A stretch of DNA of 48,346 nucleotides from Sulfurovum sp. GTDB lineage: Bacteria > Campylobacterota > Campylobacteria > Campylobacterales > Sulfurovaceae. Shown piece by piece: positions 7,370-17,295 of the stretch; within the stretch, counting starts at the first letter, position 1; every line of letters starts with the position of its first letter. A program made the position numbers and the translations under genes. The notes under the pieces are model-generated. The model had not been told where the DNA came from and searched no databases. It worked only from the letters and a program-made list of their open reading frames with translations. The stretch is from NCBI GenBank assembly GCA_027068485.1, contig JAMOSB010000012.1:1-48346 (forward strand), read 5' to 3'.

Positions 7370-7469
7370 GTGGTATCATAGCCCAAAATAAGTAAAAAGT
7401 GTATTAGCTTTATTTTTCTCTCTAAACTTTGAAAGAGATTTAAGCTAAACTATGCCACAATAGTAAATA

Positions 7470-7540
7470 AGCATAAGGCCAAACCTATTGTGAAGTAGGG
7501 ACGGAAAGCCTCAGATCTCACGCAGATGGCTGGGTTACAC
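7470..7540 (+). ncRNA. Cyclic-di-GMP-I (GEMM) riboswitch aptamer
   Basis: The core matches the class I c-di-GMP aptamer layout. A GGCcAAACC 5' strand leads into a hairpin CCTATT-GTGA-AGTAGG with a GNRA tetraloop. Next come the invariant GGGACGgAAAGCC strand (GCC pairing back to GGC), a second hairpin with ATCT/AGAT stem, and the 3' GGCTGGGTTAC strand. The order of conserved blocks is as in the Vibrio Vc2 aptamer; the second hairpin is shorter. It lies about 75 bases upstream of the start codon of the giant adhesin. c-di-GMP is the known ligand of the class; the sign of regulation is not readable from the aptamer alone. Confidence 0.88.
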
Positions 7541-7589
7541 CACACGCTGTGAAAGTTTCAGCACCCCTTCACCTCTCCAATACTCTTTT

Positions 7590-7608
7590 GTCCTTATATA
7601 TAAAGGAT
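7590..7608 (+). promoter_or_regulatory. Putative Shine-Dalgarno-sequestering hairpin (riboswitch expression platform)
   Basis: TCCTT at 7591-7595 is complementary to AAGGA at 7603-7607, the ribosome-binding site of the gene starting at 7615, with a 7-base AT loop and one extra G-T pair. No poly-T terminator is seen between aptamer and start codon, so control through SD access is the simplest reading. The alternative pairing that would release the SD was not resolved by eye. Confidence 0.5.
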
Positions 7609-7614
7609 TTAGCT

Positions 7615-10600
7615 ATGAAACAGATTCGACTACTCTTGAAGTTTATGACTCTTGTACTACTCTTCACGACTCTCTCATTCTCTGCCTCTGACACATGTGA
7701 TGGGGATGTGATTACAGGCGATGTACAGGGTGAACTACTCTACTACGGTTGGTACAACCAAAACAAGCACGACTACTACCAGTATAAAGCTCCTAGTAAT
7801 GGGATACTGGATGTAAGTTTTAAGGCGGATAAAAAACTCTACTTTCATGGAGGAACATCCTGTGGTGATAGTGATATTATGCGAAAAGATGAAAAAGCCA
7901 GTGGTTCAAAAAGTAATATCAAGCTAACTAAGGGTGAGGTCGTCTATATCCATGTGAAACGATATGGGAAAGACATATCCAATAAATATGATATCTCTAT
8001 TAACTTCACCAATACAGACCCAGAGATCACCAGTGATGGCGGGGGGGATAGTGCAGCACTTTCCATAGAGGAGAATACCAAAGCCGTTACCACGGTAAAA
8101 GCGACCTCTAATGATAGCAAAGACTATATCACCTACGCTATCTCTGGTGGGGTTGATAGTGACAAATTCACCATCAATACAACCTCTGGAGAGCTAAGCT
8201 TTAAAGAAGCACCTGATTATGAGAATCCTACAGATTTCAATAGTGACAATGACTATAGTGTCGAGGTGCAAGCCGATGATGGAGATGGAAACCCTGATAC
8301 GCAGACGATTACGGTGACTATCACCGATAATACCACAGAGAACAATACCCCACCAGAGATCACCAGCGATGGTGGAGGGGATAGTGCTTCACTGACTATC
8401 ACAGAGAATGAAAAAGCGGTCACAACCGTGACGGCAACAGATGAGGACAATGATACGATTGTCTATAGTATCACAGGCGGGGATGATCAATCACTCTTTG
8501 ATATCGATAGTGCCACAGGAGATCTTACCTTTAAGAGTACTCCTGACTATGAGACACCAGAAGATAGCGACAGTAACAATGTCTATCTCGTTGAGGTGAC
8601 CGCAGATGATCAACAGACAGGTACAGACCTACAAACATTGGAGATTACCGTAGAGGATGATCCTAATGAGGTCAACCATATTCCTGAGATTACCAGCAAT
8701 AGTGGTGGCGATGAGGCAACGATTGTTGTCTTTGAAGGCAACACCGATGTAACCGATGTCGATGCCAATGATAGTGATAAGAGTGATACCCTCACCTTTA
8801 GTATCTCTGGTGCCGATGTAGCACTCTTTAGTATCGATAGTAGCAGTGGGGTCTTAACACTCAATGACCCAGCCGTAGCAGACAACAACTACACCATCAC
8901 GGTTACAGTCTCCGATGACAAAAATGCCACAGATGATCAACTACTCACTATCATCGTCCTTGAGAAGAGTCAATGTAGTAGTGACTTAGATGATGTCGCC
9001 AATGATGTCGCACCAGGTGCTACCATTCCTGCTCTACAAGATACCGTAGAAGATACCAACACCTGTCTCTCTGGACAATCTGAGAGCGGTGATGCAGACT
9101 ACTATAGCTTTACGGTGGGGATCGATGGTACCATTGACATTACTGCATCCGCACTCAATGACCACAACTTCAAGTTTAGACTCGACTCCAATGTCACAGG
9201 AACCATCTATAGTGAAGAGGTTGGAACCCAACACACCATCGAGAGCTATCCTGTCGATAAAGGGGAGAAGCTCACACTCTATATCGAAGAGGATGGTGGA
9301 GATGATATCGATATGTATATGGTAGATTTCCAGTTTAGAAAACTTGTAGAGAATGCCGATGATATCTGTTATGCTGAGCCTATCAGCACAGGATTCAACA
9401 TGATGGGAATGGTTAAAATATTTTGGCGAAATGAACTACCACTAAGAAACAGTGCCGAAGATGGAGAGACCCTCACCGATGTCAAAGTCGTCATCGATGA
9501 AGATGGGATGGGTGGCTCTATGGGTGATGATTGTGGTACGGATCACAACAGGAGCGATGGTGATGACAAAGATGGTGGTGAGTGTCAAGATAGTACAGGT
9601 ATGGGGCCTATGGGGGCGAAGATCACCCTTGGTGGGGAGTCTACGACTCAAACTGTTGATGATGATATCGAACCAGGTGATGAGAGTAACAGTGTCTGGA
9701 CCTCTACGATGTTTGAAATGAGTATGCTCCAAGAAAATATCTACACCAGCTACACCAAAGATGGTGTACGACATGTAGGAGCACTCAAACAGTGTGAGAT
9801 AGAGATCCCTAAAGATCCACAGTTTGTTGAGTGTGGATTGGCACCTAGTGCACTCAATACATGGAAAAAGATCAACCGAGGGAACAATGACCTTGTTATC
9901 GATTCCGATACACTCTACAATGAGGGGGTCAGTGGAGGCAAAGATATTGAGTGTCGTGCCAACGGTACGACTCAAGCGTGTCAAAATGAACCCATGGAGA
10001 TTGTTGCACCGAAGCTTCCTGACTTTATCCTCTCAATGCTCTATAGTAGCTACACCGCATCAGGTACAGAGACCAACTCTAGCTATGGAGATGTCACCAT
10101 CGCTAAAAATAGCTCTGTTACCTTCGAGAGTAATGAGACCTACAGTGATAGCAATACCTCCTTTATGCTTATTCAATCACTCGATATCAAAGAGGGGGCG
10201 ACGGTAACCTTCACTGAGGGAGACTACTGGATAGGAAAATGGCACAACTTAGCCTCTGTGACCATCCGTACACAAGGAGAGGTAAGACTCTTTATCAATA
10301 GTGATATGGATCTCGATAAGAATGGTCTCGACTTCAACTACGATAGTGACAACGGGGAAGCTAAAGATATGCGTATCTTTATCTATGGTGACTTTACCTT
10401 TGGCTCTAATGGTGGGGGAAATAGCTATGATATGGCAGCCTATGTCTATACCACAGGAGCCTATACAGGCAACCATAATACCAGCAATACCCACTTCAAA
10501 GGAGCCATCACGGCAGTAGAGGATATCAACCTCAACAATAACCATGAGTATACCTACGATATGAGTGGACTCAAAGAGGGTTGGGAAGCGTGTGGATGTG

Positions 10601-13600
10601 CAGGTATCGGCTTTGAGAAGAGCGGATACAATATCGCAGAGGATATCGATGAAGTGGGGACAGAGAAGTTTGTCAATACCCGTATCGTCCTGAGCCGTGC
10701 ACTCAACCATGATGTCACAGTCACCTACTCAACAATCGATGGCAACGCAACCGTATCAGATGGGGACTATAGACGCAAAGTAGACCAAAATATCACCATC
10801 AAAGCGGGTGAGAAGAGTGCCACACTACCTATTGGTATCTTCAATGATATCCCTATCGAACTAGCTGAAAACTTCTTTGTAGAGCTTACAGATAAGAGTG
10901 ATGATGATATCTGTTTTGATATCAAAAAGACAGAGATTACCATCCTCGCACAGCAAGACTCTCCTGTCTGTTTTGAAGACAACTTTGAGAATGGACTCGA
11001 TAGCAAATGGCGTGTCTTGCGTAGTGATGGTGGATTCACCCCTCAAATCGTCGATGTAGGTGGTGATAAACGCCTCAGACTCACCGATGGAAATAAACAC
11101 CTTGCCACTACGATTACCAAAGATTATGAGTTCCTTACCCAAGAGAACCTTATCATCGTAGAGTTTGACTACCATGCCTATGGTGGATGTGGTAGTAGCC
11201 ATGGTGGTGTGGGTCGCTATGGTGCCGATGGTATCGTCAATACCCTCTTTGACTCCGCCGTAGGAGCAGAGCCTGTCCCAGGAGGAAGTGGTGGATCGAT
11301 GGGGTATGCCCAGTATACCAATAACACTCCAGGGTTTGAGGGGGGTTGGCTTGGTCTTGGTATCGATGAGTATGGTAACTTCGGTAACTGTAATGAGAAC
11401 CGAGAAGGGGGACTCAAAGGCACCTCTTGTGATAATGGTAAGAGCTTTAATCCTCAAGCTCATACCAATACCGCGGTCATCCGTGGAGATGGAAATGGTA
11501 TGAGTGGATATGAGTTCCTCCAAGGGGTAGAGCTTACCGATACAGTAGCGGTTAAGAATACTACAGACTACTACTCAGGTCGCTACAAAATGACTATCGA
11601 TGCGAGAGATGCAGATCACCTCTATATCACACTCGAACGCGACATAGGTGATGGCTCTGGCTATCAAGTGATTATCGATCAGTTTGATGCCAAAGATTCT
11701 CAATACAATCAAGGGATTACACCTGCCAAGATCCGTTATGCGATCTCCTCGGGTACAGGGGGTGGATGTAACAACCACGAACTCTCATGGATCCGTATGA
11801 AAGGGAGCTGTGGATACTATGGTAAGCCACCAGAAACGGGACCATTTGATGCATGGGATACCTTCAGACATGATGAAAACAAGGTACCAGAAGATAAGAG
11901 TATCTCTACCAAAATCGTAGAGAAACCCTTCAAGGTAGAGCTAGTTAGTACCGATATGAATCAGACCCACTATGAGACCAAAGCCTCTACAGGAGAGGAT
12001 ACCACCGTAGAGGTCGCTATCTATCAAAAAAATAGTATAGGGATTCCTGTACGAGTGAGTGATATCACCAACTTTGACGCAGCCAATGATGCGACTATGG
12101 TCTCTGAGGAGTTTGATCTCCCTCGTGCCTACAAAGACCTCTCTGTAGGCTTTAAGATGTGTGTCACCAATGAGAACAATGCCACAACAGGACGCTATGT
12201 CTACCGTCTCTGGCCAGAAGAGAACTGTGATGGAACACAGCTTGATGACTGTACCGCAGAGACCGTAGGAAGTCCTACTTGGCACATCTGTTACTCTACA
12301 GACAACTTCGCTGTGCGTCCAAGAAACTTCACTGTCTCTAGTATCGCCAATCCTGTGCGTGCAGGGAAAGGGTATGAGATTGTCTATCGTGCAGAGGATG
12401 ATAGTGGGCAAAGTACCATCGCCTACAATGAACAACAAAACAGTAGCTTTGAGATCGTCACAGCACTCCCTGAGGATAAGTCGGTGTGTCCAAACCAAGT
12501 CCTAGAGTCCAATACCACCGTGGTATTTAATGATGGTCTCTTTGGTGGGGAGTCAAACCGTACCTACTTCAATACGGTAGGTGCCTTTAGCTTCACACTC
12601 CAAGAGATCAATGGTAGTGAGTTTGCCGCAGTCGATAATGATGACACACCTCATACCGAAGCAGAGCGTGTCGCGATCACACCCTACCAGACAAGTTCTG
12701 CGGTGACCGTGACCCCTGCGAAGTTCTCCTTTACTGGGACGCTCTTTAAAAATGCCAATGAGAGTGAGAAGTTTACCTATCTTCACGATATCTCAGGTAC
12801 CAATAAAGCCATGGGTGCCAAACTCTCTGTAGCCATAGAGGCACTCATCGCAGAGGGGATGCCCGCAGAGAACTATACCCAAGGGTGTTATGCCAAAGAT
12901 ACCACACTCACGGTTGAGTACAATCTCTCAGAGACGGTTAGACCTACAGGTGCCGTAAGCAAACTCCTCTACAACAAAACCACTACGCCAACAGCCAGTG
13001 GCTCTGTGACCTTAGAGGCAGACAATGAAGGAAACATCACCATCAACTTTGATAAAGCACTCTTCCAAGATGGTCACAATGGAGCAACCGATGTCAATAT
13101 GACACTCAACTTCGACCGTAAGAGAAATAGACCTGCTAACCCTATCAAACTTACGATTGCCAAAACAACCGTGAGTGATGCAGATGATGTGACAAGTAGT
13201 GATACCCACAACCTCAGTGCCAACTACTTCTATGCACGGGCTAAAGCCTCTAAAGCGTTCTATGAGAATGTCACAGCGTCCTCTATCCAAACCCCTATTA
13301 TGGTATCACTCTATTGTGATCTCTGGTTGGGATGTACAGAGAGAGGGATCAATACCATTGAGGGACAGACCAATGATAAAAACTGGTGGCTTTCAACCAA
13401 ACACAACACCACCAAAGCAGATGGTAATATCACCTTGCGTACCGTTAGCTCTGATGCCACCGTCGATACCGATGTTGCTATCACCTCAGAGGGACAAGAT
13501 AAGACAATCACGGTCAGAAACACAGGAAGCACCTTCCCTAAAGAGGTTCTTATCGACTTGGATACCACCAATGCAACCGATACAAGTGAGTGGCTTATCT

Positions 13601-13743
13601 ACAATGAAGCAGGAAGTGCTACCCCTAGTCCATTCTACAAAGTGAGATTTATCGGGACAAGTGGGTGGTCAGGTGTCGGTAAGACAGGACATGTACTTGA
13701 GATTAATGCAAGTAATACCAAAAATAGACGATTGAGCTGGTAA
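7615..13743 (+). CDS. Giant MshQ-like multidomain surface protein / pilus-associated adhesin
   Basis: A 2042-residue exported protein. The start is the ATG at 7615, with AAGGA 7 bases upstream and a clean Sec signal (cleavage near SFSA|SD); an in-frame GTG at 7549 would begin next to the riboswitch and bury the signal. Order: PPC-like domain (~27-125); three cadherin-like repeats of ~110 residues (~133-450), each opening PEITS; a second PPC-like domain (~455-580); a Gly/Asp-rich Cys-containing region; a Calx-beta-like domain (~1000-1100); a legume-lectin/LamG-like segment (~1115-1400) opening CFEDNFENGLDSKW; and a C-terminal ~600 residues resembling the MshQ/DUF6701 family, including the hallmark FAVRPRNFTV. 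MshQ proteins accompany MSHA type IV pili. The four genes that follow with overlapping starts are prepilin-like, so this is probably a pilus-tip or surface adhesin. Asp-rich repeats suggest calcium binding. The family call is good; the ligand is unknown. Confidence 0.8.
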   Translation: MKQIRLLLKFMTLVLLFTTLSFSASDTCDGDVITGDVQGELLYYGWYNQNKHDYYQYKAPSNGILDVSFKADKKLYFHGGTSCGDSDIMRKDEKASGSKSNIKLTKGEVVYIHVKRYGKDISNKYDISINFTNTDPEITSDGGGDSAALSIEENTKAVTTVKATSNDSKDYITYAISGGVDSDKFTINTTSGELSFKEAPDYENPTDFNSDNDYSVEVQADDGDGNPDTQTITVTITDNTTENNTPPEITSDGGGDSASLTITENEKAVTTVTATDEDNDTIVYSITGGDDQSLFDIDSATGDLTFKSTPDYETPEDSDSNNVYLVEVTADDQQTGTDLQTLEITVEDDPNEVNHIPEITSNSGGDEATIVVFEGNTDVTDVDANDSDKSDTLTFSISGADVALFSIDSSSGVLTLNDPAVADNNYTITVTVSDDKNATDDQLLTIIVLEKSQCSSDLDDVANDVAPGATIPALQDTVEDTNTCLSGQSESGDADYYSFTVGIDGTIDITASALNDHNFKFRLDSNVTGTIYSEEVGTQHTIESYPVDKGEKLTLYIEEDGGDDIDMYMVDFQFRKLVENADDICYAEPISTGFNMMGMVKIFWRNELPLRNSAEDGETLTDVKVVIDEDGMGGSMGDDCGTDHNRSDGDDKDGGECQDSTGMGPMGAKITLGGESTTQTVDDDIEPGDESNSVWTSTMFEMSMLQENIYTSYTKDGVRHVGALKQCEIEIPKDPQFVECGLAPSALNTWKKINRGNNDLVIDSDTLYNEGVSGGKDIECRANGTTQACQNEPMEIVAPKLPDFILSMLYSSYTASGTETNSSYGDVTIAKNSSVTFESNETYSDSNTSFMLIQSLDIKEGATVTFTEGDYWIGKWHNLASVTIRTQGEVRLFINSDMDLDKNGLDFNYDSDNGEAKDMRIFIYGDFTFGSNGGGNSYDMAAYVYTTGAYTGNHNTSNTHFKGAITAVEDINLNNNHEYTYDMSGLKEGWEACGCAGIGFEKSGYNIAEDIDEVGTEKFVNTRIVLSRALNHDVTVTYSTIDGNATVSDGDYRRKVDQNITIKAGEKSATLPIGIFNDIPIELAENFFVELTDKSDDDICFDIKKTEITILAQQDSPVCFEDNFENGLDSKWRVLRSDGGFTPQIVDVGGDKRLRLTDGNKHLATTITKDYEFLTQENLIIVEFDYHAYGGCGSSHGGVGRYGADGIVNTLFDSAVGAEPVPGGSGGSMGYAQYTNNTPGFEGGWLGLGIDEYGNFGNCNENREGGLKGTSCDNGKSFNPQAHTNTAVIRGDGNGMSGYEFLQGVELTDTVAVKNTTDYYSGRYKMTIDARDADHLYITLERDIGDGSGYQVIIDQFDAKDSQYNQGITPAKIRYAISSGTGGGCNNHELSWIRMKGSCGYYGKPPETGPFDAWDTFRHDENKVPEDKSISTKIVEKPFKVELVSTDMNQTHYETKASTGEDTTVEVAIYQKNSIGIPVRVSDITNFDAANDATMVSEEFDLPRAYKDLSVGFKMCVTNENNATTGRYVYRLWPEENCDGTQLDDCTAETVGSPTWHICYSTDNFAVRPRNFTVSSIANPVRAGKGYEIVYRAEDDSGQSTIAYNEQQNSSFEIVTALPEDKSVCPNQVLESNTTVVFNDGLFGGESNRTYFNTVGAFSFTLQEINGSEFAAVDNDDTPHTEAERVAITPYQTSSAVTVTPAKFSFTGTLFKNANESEKFTYLHDISGTNKAMGAKLSVAIEALIAEGMPAENYTQGCYAKDTTLTVEYNLSETVRPTGAVSKLLYNKTTTPTASGSVTLEADNEGNITINFDKALFQDGHNGATDVNMTLNFDRKRNRPANPIKLTIAKTTVSDADDVTSSDTHNLSANYFYARAKASKAFYENVTASSIQTPIMVSLYCDLWLGCTERGINTIEGQTNDKNWWLSTKHNTTKADGNITLRTVSSDATVDTDVAITSEGQDKTITVRNTGSTFPKEVLIDLDTTNATDTSEWLIYNEAGSATPSPFYKVRFIGTSGWSGVGKTGHVLEINASNTKNRRLSW
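8018..8960 (+). repeat. Three tandem cadherin-like repeat units inside the adhesin gene
   Basis: Units open at about 8020, 8355 and 8680 with near-identical DNA encoding PEITSDGGGDSA-, PEITSDGGGDSA- and PEITSNSGGDEA-type starts, and have a ~330-bp period. Units 1 and 2 are most alike at DNA level, which points to recent duplication. They are protein domain repeats, not a mobile element. Confidence 0.75.
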
Positions 13744-14492
13744 TGTATACGCGTATGAGAGATGCCATTGCAATGATAGAGCTGATTTTTGCTATCGTCA
13801 TCCTTGGTGTCGTAATGATGTCTGCCCCTACACTCATCTCCACTGCGAGCAAGAGTAGCTTTGTCGCCCTTCAGCAGGAGTCTATTGCGACCGTTGCGGC
13901 GGAGATTGGAATGGTACTTACACACCATTGGGATGAAGAGGATACCAATGAGACGCGTTCTGCTCCTATCCTTGCTGCTTCAGGTGATGGAGATCTCAAT
14001 GAGACCAATGCAAGTGGGACACTCTTTACGGGTCGGCGTGCGGGGACACCTGCTTCGAGTAAACGAAGTTTTCTTGACTCCATCGGTGAGAGACACAGTG
14101 CTACAGCGAGTAGTGACTTAGGATCAGATGGGGGAGATCAAGATGATATCGATGACTTCATCACCACAGGTGCGGGGGGTGGTAGTGGACTCTCTCAAGC
14201 AGAGAGTACAGGGAGTAAAGATGCCGATATCGTCGATAAAGATATCGTACTCACCACCAAAGTAGTCTATATCAGCGATATCCCTACGAGTGGAAGCTAC
14301 CTAGGAAGTGCTACAACCCTCAAGCTCAATGATCCACTCAACACCCCTGCTCCCAATGACACCTCCAATATCAAACATATAGAGGTACGCCTCACGACCA
14401 ACTCCAAAGAGAGTGAACTAGAGAAGAATATCGTGATGCACGCCTTCTCTTGCAATATCGGTACCTATGAACTCAACAGTAGGAGCTTCTAA
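13743..14492 (+). CDS. Prepilin-like protein (minor pilin), atypical Ala/Ile cleavage site
   Basis: A 249-residue protein whose start overlaps the adhesin stop (TAATG). The short basic leader MYTRMRDA is followed by IAMIELIFAIVILGVV, a class III/type IVa signal with Glu at +5. Processing would fall after Ala, giving Ile at +1 instead of the usual Phe, and Ala instead of Gly at -1. The rest is hydrophilic, with Asp/Gly/Ser-rich stretches and a single Cys near the C-terminus, as in minor pilins. Its place directly after an MshQ-like gene and before three more prepilin genes supports a minor pilin or pilus-initiation role. An ATG at 13755 is an alternative start. Confidence 0.72.
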   Translation: MYTRMRDAIAMIELIFAIVILGVVMMSAPTLISTASKSSFVALQQESIATVAAEIGMVLTHHWDEEDTNETRSAPILAASGDGDLNETNASGTLFTGRRAGTPASSKRSFLDSIGERHSATASSDLGSDGGDQDDIDDFITTGAGGGSGLSQAESTGSKDADIVDKDIVLTTKVVYISDIPTSGSYLGSATTLKLNDPLNTPAPNDTSNIKHIEVRLTTNSKESELEKNIVMHAFSCNIGTYELNSRSF

Positions 14493-15421
14493 TGCAAGCT
14501 TATAAGCGATCAGCCTTTACGATGCTTGAGGTGATTTTTGTCATTATGATCTTGGGGATTGTCACCTCGATTGGCTCACAGATCATTGTCAAAGTCTATG
14601 AGAACTACATCATCCAACGGGCGATGCACCGTACAAGTATCAAGACCGAGACCACGGCTACACAACTAGCCAACCGTCTCTCCTTTAGTATCCCTGGTAC
14701 GATTATTGGACGGATTGATGATGCGAACTTTGATGACCTAGAGAGTATCCCCGCAGGCACCACCGATAGAAATATCTTGGAGTGGATCGGATATGATAGT
14801 GATGGGTTTAATGCTAGCTTTAGTGATGACCCACGCAACCCTGCATGGTCAGGGTATGCAGATGTCACTGCGAGTAGTATCGATAGCCTCTCGACCCCTG
14901 GTTCAAAGCTAGGCAATGAAGATACCCTCATCAAAAATCTCTCCGATTCACAACTTAGTGATAGTGCGATCCTCTTTCCTGATACCTATACGGCACACCA
15001 TGTGGGCTACTCTGAGACCAACCGAAGTGATGCGGGGATACACCCTGTCTCGGGGAGTAGCTCCGATACTGCACTCACACTCGATAGTAGTACCACCGCA
15101 CCACACCGCACCATCAAAGAGCATTACAAACTCACATGGACAGCCTACGCTGTCGTCCCCACTATACTCTCCAAAGATGAGCGTATCGCAAGAGGGTTTA
15201 AGAGTGATGATGATCTATGGGATCTCACACTCTACTACGACTACCAACCATGGGAGGGTGAGACATACAGTGATGGAAAACACCAACCCCTCATCCGAAA
15301 TATCAGTGCATTTAACTTTATGGGGACAGGAAACACCGTACGCTTCAAACTCTGTCAAAAAGAGAGTATCGGTGGAGAGTTTAGTGTCAATACATGTAAA
15401 GAGAAGGCGGTGATACGATGA
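14492..15421 (+). CDS. Prepilin-like protein, MshO-type minor pilin
   Basis: A 309-residue protein. AGGAG lies 6 bases before an ATG that overlaps the preceding stop (TAATG). The leader MQAYKRSA is followed by FTMLEVIFVIMILGIV, with Phe +1, Glu +5 and Ala at -1, then the long N-terminal helix of type IV pilins. The globular part is Ser/Thr/Asp-rich and ends with two Cys that could form the C-terminal disulphide loop. Length and position (second prepilin, before a PilX/MshP-like gene) resemble MshO. It would be cleaved and N-methylated by PilD at the inner membrane and built into a pilus or pseudopilus. Assignment to MshO specifically is inference from order. Confidence 0.72.
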   Translation: MQAYKRSAFTMLEVIFVIMILGIVTSIGSQIIVKVYENYIIQRAMHRTSIKTETTATQLANRLSFSIPGTIIGRIDDANFDDLESIPAGTTDRNILEWIGYDSDGFNASFSDDPRNPAWSGYADVTASSIDSLSTPGSKLGNEDTLIKNLSDSQLSDSAILFPDTYTAHHVGYSETNRSDAGIHPVSGSSSDTALTLDSSTTAPHRTIKEHYKLTWTAYAVVPTILSKDERIARGFKSDDDLWDLTLYYDYQPWEGETYSDGKHQPLIRNISAFNFMGTGNTVRFKLCQKESIGGEFSVNTCKEKAVIR

Positions 15422-15924
15422 TAGTTAAACAACGCAAAGGGTTTTCACTCCTTACCGCACTCTTTTTGATTGTGATGATGTCGGGTGTCTCTGCACTGGT
15501 GATGAGCCTCTCAGGTAAGATGGTCAAAGAGACCACCAACCTCTACCAAAAAGAGCAAGCCACCCTCCTAGCCAAGAGCTATACTGAGTTGGCTATCATG
15601 AGTGTAATGTCCAATGATCGAAACGGGACAGGTAAGTGTATCAATGCCATTGATGCGGTAGTCAAACCCAAAGGTGCCACGGATACCTCACTTACAGGAG
15701 ATAATGGGATGGACTATCGGGTACGGGTACGCATCTCCTACATCGGTGCAGACAAAGATATCTCTTCGTGTTCTGCAATCAGTCAGCTAGGCAACCCCAG
15801 TGCGGGGAGTGATGAGCTCAATATCATTGTTGATGCCTATGTGGAGTACAAAGATATCTCCCAAGAGGACTTAAGTGCCTCTCCATGGATCACTTATCAT
15901 AGAAGGACACTCCAAAAGATATGA
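15418..15924 (+). CDS. PilX/MshP-like minor pilin lacking Glu+5
   Basis: A 168-residue protein whose ATG overlaps the upstream TGA (ATGA). The leader MIVKQRKG ends in the canonical Gly, followed by FSLLTALFLIVMMSGVSALV. Position +5 is Thr rather than Glu. Loss of Glu5 is a feature of the PilX/GspK/MshP class, which cap or initiate fibres rather than pack inside them. The remaining ~130 residues are soluble, with two Cys. Order in the operon matches MshP following MshO. Confidence in prepilin status is good; the exact orthology is inferred. Confidence 0.7.
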   Translation: MIVKQRKGFSLLTALFLIVMMSGVSALVMSLSGKMVKETTNLYQKEQATLLAKSYTELAIMSVMSNDRNGTGKCINAIDAVVKPKGATDTSLTGDNGMDYRVRVRISYIGADKDISSCSAISQLGNPSAGSDELNIIVDAYVEYKDISQEDLSASPWITYHRRTLQKI

Positions 15925-16619
15925 GAAAGCTAACCCAACAATCAACCAAGGCACGCATGGCGTTTACGATGATAGAGCTAATTATGGTCATTCTCGTACT
16001 GGGTATCCTCGCTTCACTGGCGATGCCCAGACTAGAGCGTGAGACAAAACAAGAGGCTGCCGATCAGATCCTCTCTGCTATCCGCTACACCCAACACCTT
16101 GCACTCATAGACCATAAGCACCTCTTCAATAACAAAAAGTGGCAACGACGACTCTGGCATATCCGTTTTGGTACCTGTAGTAGTGAGGATGAGACCCGTT
16201 ACTACGCCATTGGGAGTGATAATGATGCAAGTGGCTCAGACAATGCGGAGTTTTCCAAGTCAGAAGCAGCCACCGATCCCATCAGTAGCAAACCCCTCTT
16301 TTGGAAAAATGGCGAAAGCTGTAACAAAGGCGATAGTGGCACGGAGGAGGTGAGTAGTGAGATCTTCATCACTCAGAAGTATGGTGTCAAAAATGTGGAG
16401 AGTTCTGGTGGCTGTGCTAGTGCCAAGCATATTGGGTTTGACCACCTTGGAAGACCCTTCCACGGCAAGAAGTTTTCCAACTCAGATCAAGCAGACTACA
16501 GTGGCTATATGAAAGAGCGTTGTACCTTCACCTTCACCATGCAAGATGAGGAAACATTTGCTATCCATATCGAACCAGAGACGGGATATGCCTTTATTGG
16601 AGGGCAGTTAGGCTCCTAA
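15921..16619 (+). CDS. Prepilin-like protein (minor pilin), last gene of the riboswitch operon
   Basis: A 232-residue protein starting at an ATG that overlaps the preceding TGA. The 14-residue leader is rich in Lys/Arg/Gln and ends in Ala, then FTMIELIMVILVLGILASLA with Glu at +5. The GspH/FimT-like segment DQILSAIRYTQHLAL follows the helix. Cys residues in the C-terminal half could form disulphides. The last codons are part of an intrinsic terminator, so transcription from the riboswitch leader probably ends here. It is likely a FimT/MshD-type minor pilin; which one is uncertain. Confidence 0.72.
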   Translation: MRKLTQQSTKARMAFTMIELIMVILVLGILASLAMPRLERETKQEAADQILSAIRYTQHLALIDHKHLFNNKKWQRRLWHIRFGTCSSEDETRYYAIGSDNDASGSDNAEFSKSEAATDPISSKPLFWKNGESCNKGDSGTEEVSSEIFITQKYGVKNVESSGGCASAKHIGFDHLGRPFHGKKFSNSDQADYSGYMKERCTFTFTMQDEETFAIHIEPETGYAFIGGQLGS

Positions 16620-16761: not shown

Positions 16762-17295
16762 ATGAACAGAAGTATTACAGGAAGGCATTTTGAACTCACT
16801 GAGACGATTAAAGCGTATGCTGATGCAGCGATTGAAGGGCTTAGTAAATATCACCTTGATATCATTTCAGCCAATACTGTCATTTCAGCCAATGAGAAAA
16901 ATGGGAAAAAGGGATTTGCTGTAGAGTTCATTATCAATCTTAAAGATAAAAATACAATCGTGATCACTCAAGTAGATAAAGATGTCTACGCTGCGATTGA
17001 TTTGGCGATTGAGCGTGTGAAAAAAAGCCTTAGAAGACATGCCGATAAAATCAAAGGTCATAGAATTATGAGCTTTAAAGATATGGGTGAAGAGGCTGAA
17101 GCAGTAACTGAGTTGAATAATGATGAGATTGAGATCGTACCAATGGATCTTGAACTTCACAAACCACTCGACTTTGATGAGGCGATTGAAGCCCTCAAAG
17201 CAGAGACAAAAAGACAATTTATCGTCTTTAATGATCAGTCTGGGTTGATGAGAGTGATGTATAAAAGAGCCGATGGGAAATTTGGTCTCTATTAA
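16762..17295 (+). CDS. hpf: Ribosome hibernation promoting factor, long form
   Basis: A 177-residue protein. The N-terminal ~100 residues are the S30AE/YfiA fold: MNRSITGRHFELTETIKAYA opening and basic AIERVKKSLRRHADKIKGHR helix that sits in the 30S decoding centre. After an acidic linker, the C-terminal ~50 residues (RQFIVFNDQSGLMRVMYKR) match the dimerisation domain of long HPF, which makes 100S ribosomes by itself in stationary phase. AAAGGA precedes the ATG. It is monocistronic, with its own AT-rich promoter region and a perfect terminator shared with convergent recG. Confidence 0.95.
   Translation: MNRSITGRHFELTETIKAYADAAIEGLSKYHLDIISANTVISANEKNGKKGFAVEFIINLKDKNTIVITQVDKDVYAAIDLAIERVKKSLRRHADKIKGHRIMSFKDMGEEAEAVTELNNDEIEIVPMDLELHKPLDFDEAIEALKAETKRQFIVFNDQSGLMRVMYKRADGKFGLY

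Follow-up and report, generated by a model that had tools for sequence, protein, structure and literature searches.

A giant adhesin gene, closely followed by pilin-like genes and preceded by a leader that resembles a c-di-GMP sensor, raises the question of whether this second messenger controls the operon and, if so, at which step and in which direction. The locus lies within a 48,346-nucleotide contig of a Sulfurovum genome, hereafter the window. The initial annotation had recognized a GEMM class I aptamer with a GNRA hairpin, and both readings were borne out: in a cmscan search of the whole window, RF01051 was the only Rfam family matched at its gathering threshold, scoring 55 bits against a cut-off of 35 and spanning the complete model (positions 1–87). 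Each of the 18 helix pairs is a standard or a G–U pair, including the core pairs C7479–G7504 and C7480–G7503, with P2 (7484–7489/7494–7499) capped by the tetraloop GUGA at 7490–7493 and P3 formed by 7507–7517 and 7525–7536. In the numbering of Vc2, the structural reference for the class, the ligand residues G20, A47 and C92 correspond to G7478, A7505 and C7538. On sequence grounds, its assignment as a real c-di-GMP class I member of this known riboswitch class is solid.

The genes downstream (Table 1) largely fit the description first given of them. The adhesin is followed by four prepilin-like reading frames, each overlapping the preceding one by 1–4 nt, in keeping with the coupling proposed, although only two of the four proteins pass the NCBI prepilin motif TIGR02532, the other two being prepilin-like by eye. 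The suggested resemblance to MshQ may hold indirectly: a Pfam search with the C-terminus of the window adhesin returned no match, DUF6701 included, but two of ten aligned adhesin C-termini match DUF6701 (best E 1.4e-9), such that the conserved C-terminus is probably related to this family via its orthologues. Upstream lie the divergent genes bamD (YfiO family) and lon; the Lon protein, which shares 86% identity with Sulfurovum MAG proteins, gave the genus, and the proposed Campylobacterota host is indeed a Sulfurovum. A pilin search of named genomes had no match. In the window, as in several relatives, the prepilin genes are succeeded by one for hibernation-promoting factor.

Table 1. Coordinates of features at the adhesin locus, and of a hairpin insert in two orthologous loci
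Feature	Position	Strand	Basis or remark
Extended –10 promoter element TATGCCACAAT	7451–7461	+	same place in 26/28 orthologous leaders
c-di-GMP class I riboswitch aptamer	7468–7542	+	RF01051, 55 bits, E 3.9e-8
Leader strand AUAAG, possible anti-sequester helix with CUUAU 7593–7597	7473–7477	+	model only
Expression platform without intrinsic terminator	7543–7602	+	pattern scan
SD-masking hairpin TCCTT (7591–7595)/AAGGA (7603–7607)	7591–7607	+	–4.2 kcal/mol, including flanking G–U
Secreted giant adhesin of 2,042 aa with cadherin and Calx-beta domains	7615–13743	+	SD AAGGA 7603–7607
Prepilin-like protein 1	13743–14492	+	N_methyl weak
Prepilin-like protein 2	14492–15421	+	TIGR02532 above cut-off
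Prepilin-like protein 3, lacking Glu5, weakly resembling GspK	15418–15924	+	sequence and sub-threshold match
Prepilin-like protein 4	15921–16619	+	TIGR02532 above cut-off
Hibernation-promoting factor gene (Ribosomal_S30AE)	16762–17295		after prepilin genes
165-nt hairpin insert	L071 G010:C89:22231-22395; L068 G012:C13:32197-32359		–86.3 kcal/mol, z –12.8

Conservation of the locus was examined across the genus. The adhesin has matches in 52 of 78 Sulfurovum genomes, some of them to the cadherin part only, and prepilin 1 in 58 of 78; an aptamer at the gathering threshold was found in 18 of the 40 upstream regions fetched. Most orthologous aptamers lie 20–120 nt 5′ of the adhesin start, although in L067 the start caller places this start differently from the stop-to-stop frame. 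In the named genomes the aptamer, roughly 1–1.7 kb from lon on the opposite strand, again precedes this adhesin and then three or four prepilin genes. The arrangement of an adhesin and prepilin operon behind the aptamer is kept at the same locus, usually divergent from bamD-lon, in many species. Two species (L071 and L068) carry a near-perfect 165-nt hairpin element that interrupts the orthologous adhesin aptamer in its P3 loop. Copies related to it are spread over 21 of 78 Sulfurovum genomes, with at least 10 in G018, and were assigned to no family by Rfam. Group II intron RNA (RF02005, RF00029) was found upstream of one such adhesin leader, on the other strand (L068/L266, G012:C13).

The aptamer had been placed in the adhesin 5′-UTR, a position supported by its surroundings: the adhesin ATG lies 73 nt 3′ of it and a –10 element lies 5′. 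An extended –10 pattern shortly 5′ of the aptamer occurs in 26 of 28 distinct orthologous leaders, compared to 4.4 expected from shuffles, and from its position we infer a transcription start near 7466–7469. There is good evidence, from conservation, that the aptamer is a conserved 5′-UTR element, but conservation is silent on mechanism. A TATAAT-like stretch, AGTATAAT, is present between aptamer and gene in the platforms of L043, L053 and L062, where it could be an internal promoter that bypasses the riboswitch.

The initial annotation had further proposed that TCCTT masks the AAGGA Shine–Dalgarno (SD) sequence in a hairpin, and that this hairpin is the switch. Both strands are present and can pair, but when the platform is dinucleotide-shuffled, TCCTT still turns up in 24% of cases (in 12% if it must fall within 35 nt), and the hairpin is not clearly beyond chance. 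The local accessibility of the adhesin SD is the second lowest among the 22 genes of the window. Folding with and without the aptamer, the check suggested at the outset, agreed with the proposal in part: the leader folded without constraints failed to form the aptamer, whereas enforcing it raises the hairpin probability from ~0.12 to ~0.8 and masks the SD, with a fall in SD access of 0.24–0.32. Since a fall as extreme occurs in 5–7.5% of shuffles, the coupling between hairpin and aptamer in the folding models is borderline. The same fall is seen in the nearest relative, L043, but neither in L062 nor in the group-A orthologues computed (all but the last ones); L053 falls outside this comparison because its core motif was not recognized and the aptamer constraint was not applied.

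Group A, comprising 20 leaders, has the most widespread orthologous platform, which is unlike that of the window. Directly 3′ of the aptamer it carries a covarying hairpin, C(G/A)UAAGC...GCUUAUG, together with a CAUC/GAUG helix and, ahead of the SD, a further hairpin; in the RNAalifold consensus the only partners of the group-A SD are three aptamer bases. As this platform differs and lacks the TCCTT/AAGGA hairpin, the latter is not the conserved part. Lying within chance, missing from group A and only borderline in its coupling, the hairpin is a reasonable candidate for the switch, not an established one. For group A the models also hint at a long-range closing helix without establishing it, since the pairings of the 20 orthologues' own strands beat swapped ones only at 0.07.

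We consider it fairly probable that a c-di-GMP-I riboswitch heads the transcript of an MSHA-like operon for the adhesin and minor pilins and sets translation initiation via the strand 7591–7597, which is common to the SD hairpin and to an alternative leader helix, AUAAG/CUUAU. Binding of c-di-GMP to the leader would alter whether this strand pairs with the SD or elsewhere, its pairing would set translation initiation of the adhesin, and the overlapping genes would pass the effect on to the four prepilins. Support for the c-di-GMP input comes from the GGDEF proteins encoded in the same genome (seven strong matches and one weak). In the model, the AUAAG/CUUAU state leaves G20 free, raises SD openness from 0.05 to 0.46, and lies 2.9 kcal/mol above the aptamer-only ensemble. 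Because the energy model, which omits tertiary contacts and the ligand, cannot resolve a gap this small, the computation is compatible with either direction of the switch, on which the initial annotation had taken no position. We give expression at high c-di-GMP (ON) slightly better than even chances, given that the products are adhesive and that the leader AUAAG could serve as an anti-sequester, although folding of the single window sequence leans OFF.

The specific OFF mechanism, in which the ligand would lock the aptamer, free 7591–7595 from core and leader, and mask the SD, with the adhesin made at low c-di-GMP, draws on the rise in hairpin probability, the fall in SD access and the like trend in L043. 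We nevertheless hold it to be rather unlikely: besides the borderline statistics and the absence of the trend in L062 and the computed group-A orthologues, the ON state is just 2.9 kcal/mol higher, and the riboswitch-controlled adhesin of Bc2 is ON (PMC4933901). Nor was a general OFF direction retained for the genus, as the OFF skew is about what shuffles of the window would give; SD access with versus without the aptamer is centred near zero genus-wide, with no consistent change.

That translational control is the best guess follows from the platforms themselves. A pattern scan for intrinsic terminators (a G+C-rich hairpin with a U run) returned none in the window leader, and none in 68 platforms of the genus, with 0.7 expected. 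A duplex search for strands that could pair with the aptamer gave nothing significant in the window and only slight enrichment of leader/platform pairing in the genus (mean z –0.3). Control of transcription, by Rho or an unrecognized terminator, or of mRNA stability, with translation following passively, seems improbable given the lack of any site resembling an intrinsic terminator, even though Rho and decay effects are expected to leave no simple sequence mark and terminator-type platforms are common in the class elsewhere (Bc2, PMC4933901).

The window aptamer belongs to a larger set. Counted as lower bounds and summed by hand, class I aptamers gave 254 matches in 37 Sulfurovum genomes, with at least one in 35 of the 37 and up to 21 in a single genome (G027); phylum-wide, matches occurred in 25 of 298 genomes, six of these 25 being Sulfurovum. 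The genome of the window (1.73 Mb, 98.4% complete) has five. A simple rule placed an open reading frame downstream at 83 of 86 fetched loci, with some start choices doubtful, and Pfam identified the targets as CarboxypepD_reg-like and DUF4382 lipoproteins, giant proteins with DUF11, SdrD_B or cadherin domains, and also PAS, PilJ, LysM-NlpC/P60 and a histidine kinase. At ten loci (e.g. L127, at G027:C6:400693-400920, L107, L131 and L140) class I aptamers stand in tandem, in several cases ahead of lipoprotein genes; the tandem arrangement is already known from 347 doublets (PMC9481103); at L137 (G028:C5) a second, degenerate aptamer-like copy follows the first. Elsewhere in the genome of the window, an aptamer precedes a DUF11-repeat giant protein (L075, G000:C11:14094-17430), and 3′ of it lie three possibly exchanging strands, ATAAGAAGAAC, GTTCTTCTTAT and the SD AAGGAGAAC, making L075 a candidate for a clearer sequester/anti-sequester pair than the window leader. 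From this set we tentatively propose, as a possibility that we rate below even, a Sulfurovum surface-protein regulon under translational c-di-GMP riboswitches without intrinsic terminators, in which, at its most conserved member, the adhesin-pilin operon, the mRNA 5′ end would pair long-range near the ribosome site and enclose the aptamer and an accessory hairpin.

The same set bears on ligand identity. Among 81 parsed aptamers, from Sulfurovum or nearby families and obtained with a parser that needed a paired core and rejected five (and was thus not fully blind), position 20 is G and position 47 is A in all 81, pair 21–46 is C–G, and pair 22–45 is C–G or U–A. The Vc2-type G–C pair at 21–46 is thus flipped in the window and in 81 of 81; we do not regard this as a novelty, as viral contigs are about equally divided (8 flipped and 6 unflipped stretches). 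RF03167 (c-di-GMP-I-GGC) also matches the window aptamer, below threshold (54.1 compared to a cut-off of 59), and is the best-scoring family for several aptamers of the genus, but its consensus has G at position 47 (from the printed alignment), and on account of A47 we set the GGC-variant ligand aside. Riboswitches for cGAMP (GEMM-Ib) have A at position 20, where the window aptamer has G7478. That the aptamer senses another ligand, whether cGAMP or the as yet unknown c-di-GMP-I-GGC ligand, is hence very improbable, despite the near-cut-off RF03167 scores, given G20 and A47 in the window and in every parsed aptamer.

Control of adhesins by class I riboswitches, many c-di-GMP riboswitches per genome and tandem aptamers are already known. 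The set in Sulfurovum is apparently unreported, as the open-licence literature yielded no report of c-di-GMP riboswitches in this genus, and it is the genus-wide set, more than the single locus, that is worth following. If the proposal is correct, an environmental genus of the phylum of C. jejuni, with aptamers ahead of adhesins, surface lipoproteins and sensors, would link c-di-GMP to attachment directly and in a testable way, and would offer ample material for comparing translational c-di-GMP-I platforms. Like RF01051 and Vc2, the window has a complete aptamer with a GNRA tetraloop and G20/A47/C92, positioned before genes for surface structures; it differs from Vc2 in pair 21–46. We know of no riboswitch in front of the Vibrio MSHA operon. 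The MSHA pilus of Vibrio cholerae is under c-di-GMP control, with MshQ as a putative adhesin (PMC7096442), and the Sulfurovum locus shares with it a large adhesin beside pilin genes and a link between pilus and c-di-GMP; the Sulfurovum genome also encodes one MshEN-domain protein, although on a different contig from the adhesin operon. For C. jejuni, TPP is the sole metabolite riboswitch described, and its relatives are said to be without such elements (PMC3847290). A close parallel is Bc2 of Bacillus thuringiensis, a class I riboswitch that precedes cap, a gene for a collagen adhesin (PMC4933901): both place a class I aptamer in the 5′-UTR of an adhesin gene, but Bc2 is an ON switch acting through a terminator/anti-terminator, whereas no terminator was found in the Sulfurovum leader. 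At the level of the genome, Clostridioides difficile controls surface factors by many c-di-GMP riboswitches (PMC6200980); the Sulfurovum candidates belong to another phylum, are all class I and have platforms in which no intrinsic terminator was found, but they too are numerous in a genome and stand before genes for surface factors.
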